NCBI RefSeq assembly: GCF_944377805.1
Contig: NZ_CALWFZ010000010.1
Coordinates: forward strand, 1-62,730
Direction of reading: 5' to 3'
From: an uncultured Mediterraneibacter sp.
GTDB taxonomy: Bacteria > Bacillota > Clostridia > Lachnospirales > Lachnospiraceae
Length of the DNA: 62,730 nt
The notes under the pieces are model-generated. The model ran no database searches, was not told the DNA's origin, and worked only from the letters and a program-made list of their open reading frames with translations. Position 1 is the stretch's first letter; the number at the start of each line of letters is the position of its first letter. Position numbers and translations under genes: made by a program. Shown in pieces: positions 21,819 through 50,835 of this stretch.

Positions 21819-22778
21819 ATGCACTATGATATTGCCTTCCCCAACCTGGGCATCTATCTCGACCATGTGGGGAAAAACGTTACTGTCTTCGGATTTTCAA
21901 TTGCATATTACGGCATGATCATCGGGGCGGCGATCCTGATTGGGTTTCTCATCGCCACCTCCGTGGCGAAGCGGACCCGGCAAAATCCCGAGGACTATCT
22001 GGATATGGGGATTATCGGTGTCATCGCAGGAATTGCCGGCGCCCGGATCTACTATGTGATCTTCTCCTGGGATATGTACAAAGATAACCTGCCGGACATT
22101 TTTAATCTTCGCGAAGGGGGACTTGCGATCTACGGCGGTGTGATCGGCGCGGTGATCGCGGTGTTTGTCCTTGCGAGAGTGAAAAGGCTGTCTCCCTTTC
22201 AGATATTGGATACAGTGGCGATGGCGATTCTGAACGGCCAGATGCTGGGGCGCTGGGGGAACTTTTTCAACCGGGAGGCATTTGGTGAGTATACAGACGG
22301 GCTGTTTGCCATGCGGCTTCCGGTGGACGCGGTGCGCTCCGGAGACATTACAGAGCGGATGCGTGAGCATATGGAAACTATCGGTGGTGTGGACTATATC
22401 CAGGTAAGCCCCACGTTTCTCTATGAGTCGGTGTGGTGCGCCGTTCTTCTGATACTGCTCATTCTGTACCGGAAGCATAAGAAATACGAGGGTGAACTGT
22501 TTCTTCTGTATATCTTCGGGTATGCCCTGGGAAGGGTGTGGATCGAAGGCCTGCGGACAGACCAGCTCCTGATCCCGGGAATCGGATTCCCGGTGTCTCA
22601 GGCTCTGGCAGGCTGTGTTGTTGTCTTCGCCGGAGCGGCGCTTCTGTATCTTAAGAAGAATCACAGGCGTATGCCGCTTTTAAAGGGCGGGAAGGTATAT
22701 GAGCCCATGCCGGACAAAATAGAAGGGAAGAAGCCGCCGAAGAAAAAAGACAGGATATTTAAGTTCAAAGACAGATAA
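21819..22778 (+). CDS. lgt: Prolipoprotein diacylglyceryl transferase
   Basis: Membrane enzyme that attaches diacylglycerol to the lipobox cysteine of prolipoproteins, such as the sugar-binding lipoprotein in this window. The 319-residue protein has about seven transmembrane helices and the Lgt signature LGRWGNFFNREAFG. The conserved GGLAIYGGVIGA, YESVWC and GYALGRVWIEGLR segments are present. A Lys-rich cytosolic tail (PPKKKDRIFKF) ends the chain. A second, divergent Lgt-like gene lies 0.6 kb downstream. Confidence 0.95.
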   Translation: MHYDIAFPNLGIYLDHVGKNVTVFGFSIAYYGMIIGAAILIGFLIATSVAKRTRQNPEDYLDMGIIGVIAGIAGARIYYVIFSWDMYKDNLPDIFNLREGGLAIYGGVIGAVIAVFVLARVKRLSPFQILDTVAMAILNGQMLGRWGNFFNREAFGEYTDGLFAMRLPVDAVRSGDITERMREHMETIGGVDYIQVSPTFLYESVWCAVLLILLILYRKHKKYEGELFLLYIFGYALGRVWIEGLRTDQLLIPGIGFPVSQALAGCVVVFAGAALLYLKKNHRRMPLLKGGKVYEPMPDKIEGKKPPKKKDRIFKFKDR

Positions 22779-23237: not shown

Positions 23238-23265
23238 AAAAGGGGTGTGCGTCATCCCTTTTTTG
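23238..23265 (+). terminator. Terminator after the small membrane protein gene
   Basis: AAAAGGGGTG pairs with CATCCCTTTT around a short loop, and a run of T follows. Confidence 0.75.
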
Positions 23266-23270
23266 TTTGT

Positions 23271-23370
23271 GACGGCGGCAGGACAAAGTCCGGGCCTGCC
23301 AGAGATCTTGGAAACTGCTTATAATCCCGAAATGCACCTTTTGGCGCTTTCGGTGACTTCGAACAAAACA
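23271..23370 (+). ncRNA. Candidate structured RNA element, copy A (before the lgt paralogue)
   Basis: Hairpin 1 pairs GGCAGG (23277-23282) with CCTGCC (23295-23300) around a loop containing CAAAGTCCGGG. Hairpin 2 pairs CCGAAA (23327-23332) with TTTCGG (23348-23353), continuing inward as GC-CC/GG-GC around a TTTT loop. A linker with GAGATC, TTGG and CTTATAAT joins them. Copy B before rnr has the same order, the same loop and linker words, and stems with compensatory changes. The class is not one I recognise. The element lies just after a terminator and about 40 bases before a start codon. Confidence 0.5.
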
Positions 23371-23411: not shown

Positions 23412-24200
23412 ATGGTAATACAGATCGGATCATTTATGATTCCGTGGTATGGATTGTTTATCGTACTTGGGATAGCTGCGGGGATTGTGCTCGGATATTT
23501 TCTGATACGCGCGGAACATCTGGCGTTTGATGACTTTATACAGACTGCGTGCTTCGTGGGTCTGGGGGCAATGATCGGAGCCAAGCTGCTGTACCTTGCG
23601 GTTTCATGGAAATATATTGACTTTTCAAGACTGACAGATCTGGAATATCTGAATGCGCTGATGGGAGGCGGATTCGTCTTTTATGGCGGGCTGATCGGAG
23701 GACTGATCGGGCTGTATCTGTGCGGAAAGATCCTTCACATAGAGGTGGCGCAATACGCGCGCGCGGCCATACCGGTGATTCCGCTCGTGCACGCTTTTGG
23801 GAGAATCGGCTGCTCCGTTGTGGGATGCTGTTATGGCATGCCTTACGACGGCCCCGGGGCAATTGTGTACACAGAGTCCATCGCGGCTCCGCTGGATGTG
23901 CACCTCTTTCCCGTGCAGGCGCTGGAAGCAGCGGGATGCTTTGCGATAACAGCGGTACTGTGCCTGTATGTATCGTCTTGCAGGAAGAGAGGGAAGAGGG
24001 CAAAAAGCGTGCAGCTTTACCTTGCCATGTATGCGGTGCTGCGTTTTATTCTTGAGTTTGCCAGATATGACGACGCGGAGCGTGGAATCGAATTCGGCCT
24101 GTCCACGTCGCAGTGGATCAGTATAGGGATCTGCGTTGCTCTTATAGTGATGGAAGTACGGGGGAGAGCACGCGGCAGGACACTGTCCGGTGTGAAATAA
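23412..24200 (+). CDS. Divergent Lgt-family membrane protein
   Basis: A 263-residue polytopic membrane protein of the prolipoprotein diacylglyceryl transferase superfamily, clearly different from the canonical lgt upstream. It keeps FMIPWYGLFIVLGIAAG, GGFVFYGGLIGGLIGLY and FPVQALEA. The usual GRWGNFFNREAFG signature is replaced by HAFGRIGCSVVGCCYGMP, with a cysteine cluster. Whether it acts on lipoproteins or on another substrate is unknown. I start at ATG 23412, behind AAAGGAG; a TTG one codon earlier is possible. The structured element at 23271-23370 is its apparent leader, and a strong terminator follows. Confidence 0.8.
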   Translation: MVIQIGSFMIPWYGLFIVLGIAAGIVLGYFLIRAEHLAFDDFIQTACFVGLGAMIGAKLLYLAVSWKYIDFSRLTDLEYLNALMGGGFVFYGGLIGGLIGLYLCGKILHIEVAQYARAAIPVIPLVHAFGRIGCSVVGCCYGMPYDGPGAIVYTESIAAPLDVHLFPVQALEAAGCFAITAVLCLYVSSCRKRGKRAKSVQLYLAMYAVLRFILEFARYDDAERGIEFGLSTSQWISIGICVALIVMEVRGRARGRTLSGVK

Positions 24201-48534: not shown

Positions 48535-48569
48535 TATCAAATGCACTATATCAGAAGATAATAATTACT

Positions 48570-48606
48570 AAGCACTCTATACGGATATAGAGTGCTTATG
48601 TTTTTG
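48570..48606 (+). terminator. Terminator after secG
   Basis: AAGCACTCTATA (48570-48581) pairs perfectly with TATAGAGTGCTT (48586-48597) around a CGGA loop. TTTTT begins four bases later, at 48601. Confidence 0.82.
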
Positions 48607-48700
48607 TACCGGCGACGAGCCAAAGTCCGGGCGTGCCCGAGACCCTGGCGGAGCTTACAATCCCGGAACATGCCTTCTGGCACTTCCGGTGATTCTGACA
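48605..48700 (+). ncRNA. Candidate structured RNA element, copy B (before rnr)
   Basis: Hairpin 1 pairs GGC-ACG (48611-48617, one bulged G) with CGTGCC (48632-48637), around CAAAGTCCGGG as in copy A. Hairpin 2 pairs CCGGAA (48663-48668) with TTCCGG (48684-48689) and continues as TGCC/GGCA around TTCT. The linker has GAGACC, CTGG and CTTACAAT. Against copy A, several stem pairs change on both sides, which keeps pairing. It ends about 23 bases before rnr and starts right after the secG terminator. Confidence 0.5.
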
Positions 48701-48723: not shown

Positions 48724-50835
48724 ATGGATCAGACATTTGAGAAGAGAAAGAAAGTAATACTGGATTTCATCAGCGACGACCTGTATGTTCCCATGAAGAT
48801 TAAAGAGATAGCGGTCGTACTTCAGATCCCGAGAGAGCAGCGATCTGACCTCAAAGAGATACTCGACGCTCTTGTGGAAGAGGGGAAGATCACCTTATCC
48901 AAAAGAGGGAAATACAGCAAGGGACATGCGGTTCATCTGAAAGGTACCTTTCAGGCCAATGCCAGAGGTTTCGGCTTCGTCTCGCCTCAGGAAGGCGGCG
49001 AGGATGTATTTATTCCGGAGCAGAATATATCTGGCGCTTTTCAGGGGGATGAGGTGGAGTACATCGTTGTCTCTTCCCCGTCCGGCAGACGAAAAGAGGG
49101 AAAGATTGTGCGCGTCCTCTCCCACAGTATTGTCCGCGTTGTCGGCCTGTATGAAAAGGTCCGGGACTTCGGCTTTGTCCGCCCGGACAACCAGCGGTAT
49201 CTGAAGGACATTTATATCCCTTCGGGAAAAGAGATGGGAGCAATGACTGGTCATAAGGTGGTCGTGGAGCTTACCTCTTACGGGGAAGAACATTTGAAGC
49301 CGGAGGGAAAAGTGACAGAGATCATCGGGCATGTCAATGATCCGGGCACAGATATTCTCTCTGTCGTGATGGATCTGGGGATCCCCACGGAATTTCCGGA
49401 GAGAGTACTCAACCAGGCGGTACGCGTCGGAAAGGCGGTAAGCGAGGCGGACCGCGCGGGAAGAAAAGACCTGCGGAACTGGCGTATGGTTACAATCGAC
49501 GGAGAGGACGCCAAAGATCTGGACGATGCGGTATCTCTGACTATGGAAGGGGAAAACTACCGTCTGGGCGTGCATATCGCCGATGTTGCCAATTATGTAC
49601 AGGAGAGAAGCGCGCTCGATAAGGAGGCCTTTGAGCGGGGAACGAGTGTGTATCTGGCGGACCGGGTTATTCCCATGCTTCCTCATGTCCTGTCCAACGG
49701 CATATGCTCTTTGAACGCGGGGGAGGACAGGCTGGCCCTTTCCTGTATCATGACACTGTCTCCTTCCGGCGAGATTATTGATCACGAGATCGCGGAGACA
49801 GTCATCAATGTGGATAAAAGGATGAGTTACAACGGCGTGGCGAAGATCCTGTCAGGGGATGTATCGGAGTGCAGGGAGAACGAGGCGTTTGTGCCAATGC
49901 TTCTTCGGATGAAGGAACTCTCCGATCTTATCCGAAGCCGGAGGGGGAGAAGGGGATCGATTGATTTTGATTTCCCTGAGACGAAAATTATCCTTGACGG
50001 GCAGGGGAGGCCTGTCGATGTCAGGCCCTATGAGCGAAATGACGCGACGAAGATCATTGAAGACTTCATGCTGATGGCCAATGAGACAGTGGCGGAAGAG
50101 TATTACTGGCGGGAAATTCCGTTTCTCTACCGTACCCATGAAGTGCCGGATGAGGAGAAGATACGTCAGCTATCGGCCTTTGTCAATAACTTTGGGTATC
50201 ACATCCATGTTCGGGACGAGGTGCGTCCGGGGCAGATTCAGAAGCTGCTGGATAAAACAGAGGGCACGCCTCAGGAGGCGATGATCAGCCGTCTGGCTCT
50301 GCGGTCTATGAAACAGGCAAAGTATACGACGGAGAATACGGGGCACTTCGGGCTGGCAGCTAAATACTATACGCATTTCACATCCCCTATCAGACGCTAT
50401 CCGGATCTCCAGATCCACAGGATTATCAAGGAGAATTTAAGAGGGAGGCTGAATGAAGAGCGGATGGCTCATTATGCCGGCATCCTGCCGAAATCGGCGT
50501 CACAGTGCAGTGACCGGGAGCGCAGGGCCGAAGAAGCCGAGCGCGAGGTTGTGAAGATGAAAAAGGCTGAGTACATGAGGGATCGTATCGGGGAAGAATA
50601 TGAAGGCGTGATCTCCAGTGTGACGAAATGGGGGCTCTATGTGGAACTTTCCAATACGGTGGAGGGACTCGTCCATGTAGCCGATATGCGTGATGATCAC
50701 TATGAACTCTGTGAGCAGAGTTATGAGCTGACAGGGGAGCATACGGGGAAAACGTATAAACTCGGACAGACCGTGCGGGTGCGTGTGACGGACGCAGACA
50801 AGCTTCAGAAGACAGTGGATTTTGAAATAATATAA
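48724..50835 (+). CDS. rnr: Ribonuclease R
   Basis: Processive 3'-5' exoribonuclease that degrades structured RNA and works with SmpB/tmRNA on stalled mRNAs. The 703-residue protein has an N-terminal winged-helix region (about 1-65), cold-shock RNA-binding domains (about 70-210), the RNB catalytic domain (about 240-570) with VTIDGEDAKDLDDAV holding the metal-binding aspartates, and a C-terminal S1 domain (about 620-703, GEEYEGVISSVTKWGLYVEL). FTSPIRRYPDLQIHR is the conserved late RNB motif. ACGGAG lies upstream. smpB follows by 45 bases. Confidence 0.95.
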   Translation: MDQTFEKRKKVILDFISDDLYVPMKIKEIAVVLQIPREQRSDLKEILDALVEEGKITLSKRGKYSKGHAVHLKGTFQANARGFGFVSPQEGGEDVFIPEQNISGAFQGDEVEYIVVSSPSGRRKEGKIVRVLSHSIVRVVGLYEKVRDFGFVRPDNQRYLKDIYIPSGKEMGAMTGHKVVVELTSYGEEHLKPEGKVTEIIGHVNDPGTDILSVVMDLGIPTEFPERVLNQAVRVGKAVSEADRAGRKDLRNWRMVTIDGEDAKDLDDAVSLTMEGENYRLGVHIADVANYVQERSALDKEAFERGTSVYLADRVIPMLPHVLSNGICSLNAGEDRLALSCIMTLSPSGEIIDHEIAETVINVDKRMSYNGVAKILSGDVSECRENEAFVPMLLRMKELSDLIRSRRGRRGSIDFDFPETKIILDGQGRPVDVRPYERNDATKIIEDFMLMANETVAEEYYWREIPFLYRTHEVPDEEKIRQLSAFVNNFGYHIHVRDEVRPGQIQKLLDKTEGTPQEAMISRLALRSMKQAKYTTENTGHFGLAAKYYTHFTSPIRRYPDLQIHRIIKENLRGRLNEERMAHYAGILPKSASQCSDRERRAEEAEREVVKMKKAEYMRDRIGEEYEGVISSVTKWGLYVELSNTVEGLVHVADMRDDHYELCEQSYELTGEHTGKTYKLGQTVRVRVTDADKLQKTVDFEII

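Follow-up and report, generated by a model that had tools for sequence, protein, structure and literature searches.

Two short segments resemble each other within the window, a stretch of 62,730 nucleotides of DNA from an uncultured Mediterraneibacter sp., one located upstream of an LGT-family gene and the other upstream of an RNase R-like gene. A preliminary description had left three options for them (a cis-regulatory leader, a small RNA or a structured repeat) and we asked which kind of element they represent. We consider, with a probability of roughly 70%, that both derive from a mobile repeat of ~90 nt, non-autonomous and strand-specific, that would insert behind terminators and be recognised as a folded strand. 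The simpler statement that they belong to a mobile repeat targeting terminators is very likely to be correct.

Two copies of a dispersed repeat

As presented in Table 1, the window contains an lgt copy (copy 1) and an rnr copy (copy 2). The similarity of roughly 70% initially described between the two stretches is real, with 65 identical positions out of 90 (72%), and it goes beyond chance, since a 22-base core searched with up to 3 mismatches was found at 29 places in the 2.28-Mb genome of origin and at none for the reversed control. Both copies lie directly 3' of a terminator-like hairpin with a T-tract, as had been noticed; the terminator of the lgt copy (locus L048) is absent from the list of a simple terminator scan and passes our hairpin test. 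The distance of 20-45 bases to a start codon was correct for rnr (29 nt) and too short for lgt (53 nt). The lgt copy is decayed, with 28 of 33 family pairs retained, and 30 of 33 are retained in the rnr copy.

Table 1. Features of the two copies and their surroundings in the window. R1 and R2 are the models described in the text; the R1 scores of both copies come from a model whose training set (26 copies) includes these two.
Feature	Position	Strand	Evidence
Terminator hairpin and T-tract, apparent insertion target of copy 1 (lgt)	23238..23268	+	Visible in sequence
Element copy 1 (lgt copy), 90 nt	23269..23358	+	R1 97.6 bits at 23263-23361
Copy 1, domain 1 hairpin	23269..23322	+	R2 43.4 bits at 23263-23322
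Copy 1, domain 2 hairpin	23323..23358	+	Family fold and pair count
LGT (prolipoprotein diacylglyceryl transferase) family gene, downstream of copy 1	23412..24200	+	ORF; Pfam LGT, E 1.2e-41
Terminator hairpin (48569-48598) and T-tract, site of copy 2 (rnr)	48569..48605	+	Simple scan; conserved in relatives
Element copy 2 (rnr copy), 89 nt, one deletion	48606..48694	+	R1 102.1 bits at 48600-48697
Copy 2, domain 1 hairpin	48606..48658	+	R2 62.2 bits at 48600-48658
Copy 2, domain 2 hairpin	48659..48694	+	Family fold and pair count
RNase R-like gene (rnr), downstream of copy 2	48724..50835	+	ORF; Pfam RNB, cold-shock and S1 domains

The model R1 was built from 26 of the 29 pattern copies (alignment A2). 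It gave 56 matches in the genome of origin, and some of these are short forms that resemble, by eye, deletions between two GGCGAC words. Across 61 genomes, R1 matched 24, each of which carries 1 to 56 copies and belongs to the 37 genomes sampled from this genus; no match was obtained in the other 13 of these 37 or in any of the 24 genomes from other families. An exact-pattern scan of GTDB genomes returned 90 stretches, carried by Mediterraneibacter, Mordavella massiliensis, [Ruminococcus] torques, Ruminococcus turbiniformis, Faecalimonas umbilicata, Lachnoclostridium, Clostridium sp. Marseille-P3244 and an uncultured Lachnospiraceae bacterium. Mediterraneibacter is a genus of Lachnospiraceae, the family to which we assign the window. 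Of the three options, the structured repeat is the one supported.

To describe the copies of the genus we used a set of 124, comprising 94 of 105 search matches (6 duplicate loci and 5 copies cut by contig ends were dropped) and only 30 of the 56 R1 matches of the genome of origin. In the consensus of 120 of these copies, the T-tract is followed at once by the initial G, and GATT marks a sharp 3' end; close to the 5' end, the NN of GYRNNGGC is hypervariable from one copy to the next. In M. glycyrrhizinilyticus, the median identity among 32 copies reaches 95.6%; three copies are identical, and the flanks are unrelated (27% identity). Among the 30 copies from the genome of origin, the median is 78% and the highest value 96%, so these copies are older.

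A covarying two-hairpin fold across Lachnospiraceae

The initial proposal of two hairpins was borne out by the family consensus, in whose fold two hairpins, set flush against each other, take up all 90 nt (-46.2 kcal/mol, z = -6.2). Domain 1 (54 nt) is composed of GYR/UAC and GGCG/CGCU, an internal loop ACGA/GAC, GCCAA/UUGGC and a bulged-A hairpin with a CUUG loop, and domain 2 (36 nt) of AAUC/GAUU, CCGGAA/UUCCGG and GUGCC/GGCAC with two bulged U. The stems themselves had to be redrawn. The first one (GGCAGG/CCTGCC) differs from the family stem and forms in the decayed lgt copy only, whose own minimum-energy fold deviates from the family consensus; its rnr version requires a skipped base, and other bases are paired in the family fold. 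The second stem is real and longer than it had been drawn, being part of a 15-pair hairpin in which the window copies present two both-sided differences (A-U/G-C and C-G/U-A). The adopted fold was derived from the consensus and from distant members, two of which (L270 and L231) share the domain 1 fold and lie behind terminators by eye. RNAalifold on the 26 copies of the genome of origin gave a different, weak fold and did not return the family fold.

The covariance-model search that had been suggested revealed further homologues with covariation. In 14 sequences picked for diversity, so that the counts are selected (alignment A5), both-sided changes were observed at 8 pairs, compared to 2.9 after shuffling (0 of 500 shuffles). 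Across Lachnospiraceae, in 65 distinct rows of an alignment made from 76 chosen loci and fitted to the model (A6), 16 pairs and 117 cells showed such changes, compared to 8.3 and 51.6 after shuffling (0 of 500 for both). The loops are conserved as well, with ACGA in 51, GAC in 52 and CUUG in 46 of 60 rows. Judged by eye, the element grows by modules: tandem or nested copies, as well as copies whose domain 1 has an additional hairpin, were seen at L331 (two copies ~490 nt apart), L330 and L336.

R2, a model of domain 1, matched 139 of 348 Lachnospiraceae genomes and 133 of 333 genera; up to 15 candidates were scored per genome, and copy numbers are thus lower bounds. In a phylum-wide sample, 3 of 398 genomes matched, all of them Lachnospiraceae. 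The genus consensus had no match in a plasmid collection, and one exact pattern had 0 matches in viral contigs. Among 50,697 records of a phage collection, 10 (H1-H10) match the form of the element found in other genera, 5 of them over at least 80% of its length; phage genes and bacterial flanks are pooled in these records.

Association with terminators and empty sites

Using a strict test (hairpin of -6 kcal/mol or better and at least 5 T in 7), a terminator precedes 115 of the 124 copies, in comparison with 3 of 372 random positions and 132 of 372 random T-rich positions. With a loose test, these numbers were 119 of 124, 19 of 372 and 159 of 372, and 5 of the 124 copies fail even this test. 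The terminator appears to be what the element targets for insertion, hence its presence ahead of both window copies. In other genera, copies were found immediately 3' of terminators belonging to an FMN riboswitch (L293:1308-1501), a T-box (L311:1217-1501) and a purine riboswitch (L296:1684-1501, minus strand), where they could alter regulation. Several other genera also possess a second subtype, beginning TTATTCCCGCG, for which a terminator is often not evident, so that terminator targeting is less secure as a rule holding throughout the superfamily. By eye, copies of this subtype in L323 and L325 (around position 1500) appear inserted within the loop of an inverted repeat.

Relatives of the genome of origin mostly present these sites without the element. 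At the LGT-gene site, R1 found the element in 1 of 20 loci, that of the own genome. Of 19 relatives, 17 were read by eye. In 13 of them the upstream gene and a terminator-like hairpin are both in place and nothing is inserted; 3 have no terminator and 1 has a different upstream gene. At the secG-rnr site, R1 found the element in 2 of 30 loci (own genome and L127), and 21 of the 29 loci read by eye carry neither the element nor the second repeat described below. As an example of an empty rnr site, L118 and L120 read TTTTT-CT where the window reads TTTTT-[G...GATT]-CT. Comparing empty and occupied sites across relatives, rather than within one species, we observed no target duplication beyond a possible TT. 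Nor did inspection of the consensus by eye show a terminal inverted repeat, the other trait expected of a MITE.

Another interspersed repeat, family B (loci L399-L427), begins GTGCGATACGCCCGG and matches in 30 of 58 genomes of the genus. We took 28 of its 30 loci, 9 of which have no start motif; among the 19 left, three being known rnr sites, 18 have a terminator-like hairpin in front of the repeat. Family B occupies the same secG-rnr point in four loci, L109, L119, L123 and L136, the last two being the sources of the query; L108 and L124 resemble such sites by eye. One family B stretch has a fold z of -7.4. Many family B loci carry GTGCTTGCAC followed by A, which is by eye the apical hairpin of the first repeat (family A) in other genera, and this common motif suggests a single superfamily. 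Since terminators are common to two repeat families and group IIC introns, a shared safe-harbour strategy is suggested.

Mobilisation, rival explanations and related systems

In the mechanism that we favour, the element would insert directly 3' of the hairpin of an intrinsic terminator, at the end of the T-tract. It would probably be recognised as a folded strand, chiefly through domain 1, which holds the ACGA/GAC internal loop and the CUUG hairpin; whether single-stranded DNA rather than RNA would be the recognised form, we hold evenly balanced. A candidate enzyme acting in trans would join the folded strand to the T-rich strand that lies exposed next to the hairpin of the terminator. The inserted copy would be unselected and decay, the fold being kept in those lineages that spread.

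The decay of single copies bears on these steps. In 119 distinct copies of the genus, 3618 of 3905 pairs are kept, compared to 3594.7 expected if both sides had changed independently, and 131 G-T and 151 A-C cells were counted over 31 pairs. Kept pairs close to the expectation of independent decay and similar G-T and A-C counts indicate that single copies look nearly unselected, even if the slight excess of pairs may reflect selection on some of them. Across Lachnospiraceae, helices 2 and 3 contain 6 G-T and 17 A-C cells, a count from which 7 weak matches of A6 were dropped, and in a small control the acceptor stems of tRNAs at the same loci (14 of 18 tRNAs) contain 7 G-T and 0 A-C. A selected RNA helix tolerates G-U, and since G-U is not favoured in the element we lean, short of a proof, towards a folded DNA strand rather than RNA.

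We found no mobilising enzyme among Y1 transposases, reverse transcriptases and the ORFs beside copies. The latter formed 13 recurring clusters of 3 to 9 loci with no mobility gene, which we take to be common paralogous or conserved families. That families A and B, both with a CUUG hairpin containing a bulged A, form a superfamily of folded-single-strand elements landing at terminators, mobilised by machinery other than Y1 transposases and reverse transcriptases, is a tentative and rather doubtful extension. If true, it would amount to a new system of transposition, or to a host enzyme active at terminators that has gone unrecognised.

Terminator targeting makes a retro-element akin to a miniature group IIC intron, with its RNA mobilised in trans by group IIC machinery, worth considering, as the group IIC-type introns of the genus (RF02001; L229, L230, L232 and L233) also lie behind terminators by eye and the own genome has one group II reverse transcriptase. 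However, the introns of the genus match Rfam intron models and the element does not, no domain V was seen in it, and its 5' end GYRNN equals GUGYG, the 5' motif of group II introns, by chance only. Of 16 genomes checked, the majority picked for a high copy number, 7 have no RVT_1 match, and one genome with 43 R1 matches (G012) has no group II reverse transcriptase match; together with helices that do not favour G-U, these results make such an origin unlikely. Slightly less probable still, in our judgement, is mobilisation by a Y1 (HUH) transposase (IS200/IS605 or RAYT type), which would make the repeat a REP- or PATE-like element. Elements moved in this way have bulged end hairpins and insert strand-specifically without duplication, and the repeat similarly has imperfect bulged hairpins near both ends, AAAG just before hairpin 1, strand specificity and no clear duplication. 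Y1_Tnp also has matches in most genomes of the genus (49 of 58). Nevertheless, it shows no association with the element over 348 Lachnospiraceae genomes, 195 of which match Y1_Tnp (79 of the 139 genomes with the element and 116 of the 209 without it; odds ratio 1.06, p 0.83). The own genome has no Y1_Tnp match, 10 of 33 high-copy genomes have none either, and R1 found a copy at L270 only among 30 Y1 loci. Two genomes (G247 and G258) match neither RVT_1 nor Y1_Tnp.

The idea of a leader or promoter element acting on the downstream gene draws on the covarying structure, on a possible co-option of single copies and on promoter-like words, CTGCCA-18-TATAAT in copy 1 and TTGCCC-18-TACAAT at the same place in the genus consensus. 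The -10-like word is nevertheless missing from those elements of other genera that were read and carry the ACGCG start. The gene neighbours are unrelated and their orientation is mixed: among the 106 copies that have a downstream gene no more than 600 nt away, 70 are co-directional with it and 36 face a convergent one, in comparison with 126 and 90 for control gaps. Presence of the element at the same gene varies between relatives, the sites being mostly empty, and its copies decay symmetrically with near-independent pairs. Taken together, these observations leave the cis-regulatory option very improbable, and the small RNA option found no support either. The mobile repeat landing behind terminators thus remains our preferred reading.

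Group IIC introns are the closest comparison for the target; they were reportedly the subject of work by Robart et al. in 2007. A terminator stem-loop is part of their target recognition (PMC7161350). Like the element, they lie behind intrinsic terminators in a strand-specific manner and need the hairpin beside the site; unlike the 90-nt element, which has no intron match, they are far longer ribozymes encoding a reverse transcriptase. According to PMC3049150, the pneumococcal BOX, RUP and SPRITE repeats are likewise short, structured, interspersed and non-autonomous, but all three have terminal inverted repeats and BOX and RUP also target duplications, none of which was seen in the element beyond a possible TT, and SPRITE resembles a terminator whereas the element follows one. 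The element also differs from REP/REPIN sequences, which are inverted REP pairs, in having two different flush hairpins, a terminator target and no Y1 association. REP/REPIN with their RAYT transposases are short bulged palindromes, non-autonomous and probably moved as single strands.

The Rfam check confirmed that the element matches no known class: there was no match at gathering score, and at E values up to 10 both stretches gave chance-level matches only. Rfam has no entry for this repeat, which is present in ~40% of the sampled Lachnospiraceae genera and can pass for a riboswitch or an sRNA. Our search of the published literature found no described equivalent. The supplements of PMC8040213 list 3161 candidate structured RNAs, and an unnamed listing of the element among them is possible. 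A small structured interspersed repeat is a known kind of element; what makes this one new is its target, its fold and the absence of known machinery.

A resemblance of the motif CAAAGTCCGGGC to the CR-I region of RNase P was also considered and rejected, as the order within the partner segment differs and Rfam gives no match. A promoter as a feature of the element was rejected too, a good one being present in copy 1 only. This predicted sigma-70-like promoter (window 23296-23325) matches the consensus at 10 of 12 positions, and its co-option is possible. Finally, the LGT-family gene behind copy 1 lies ~0.6 kb from another LGT-family gene (21819-22778), to which it is weakly similar (23% identity).
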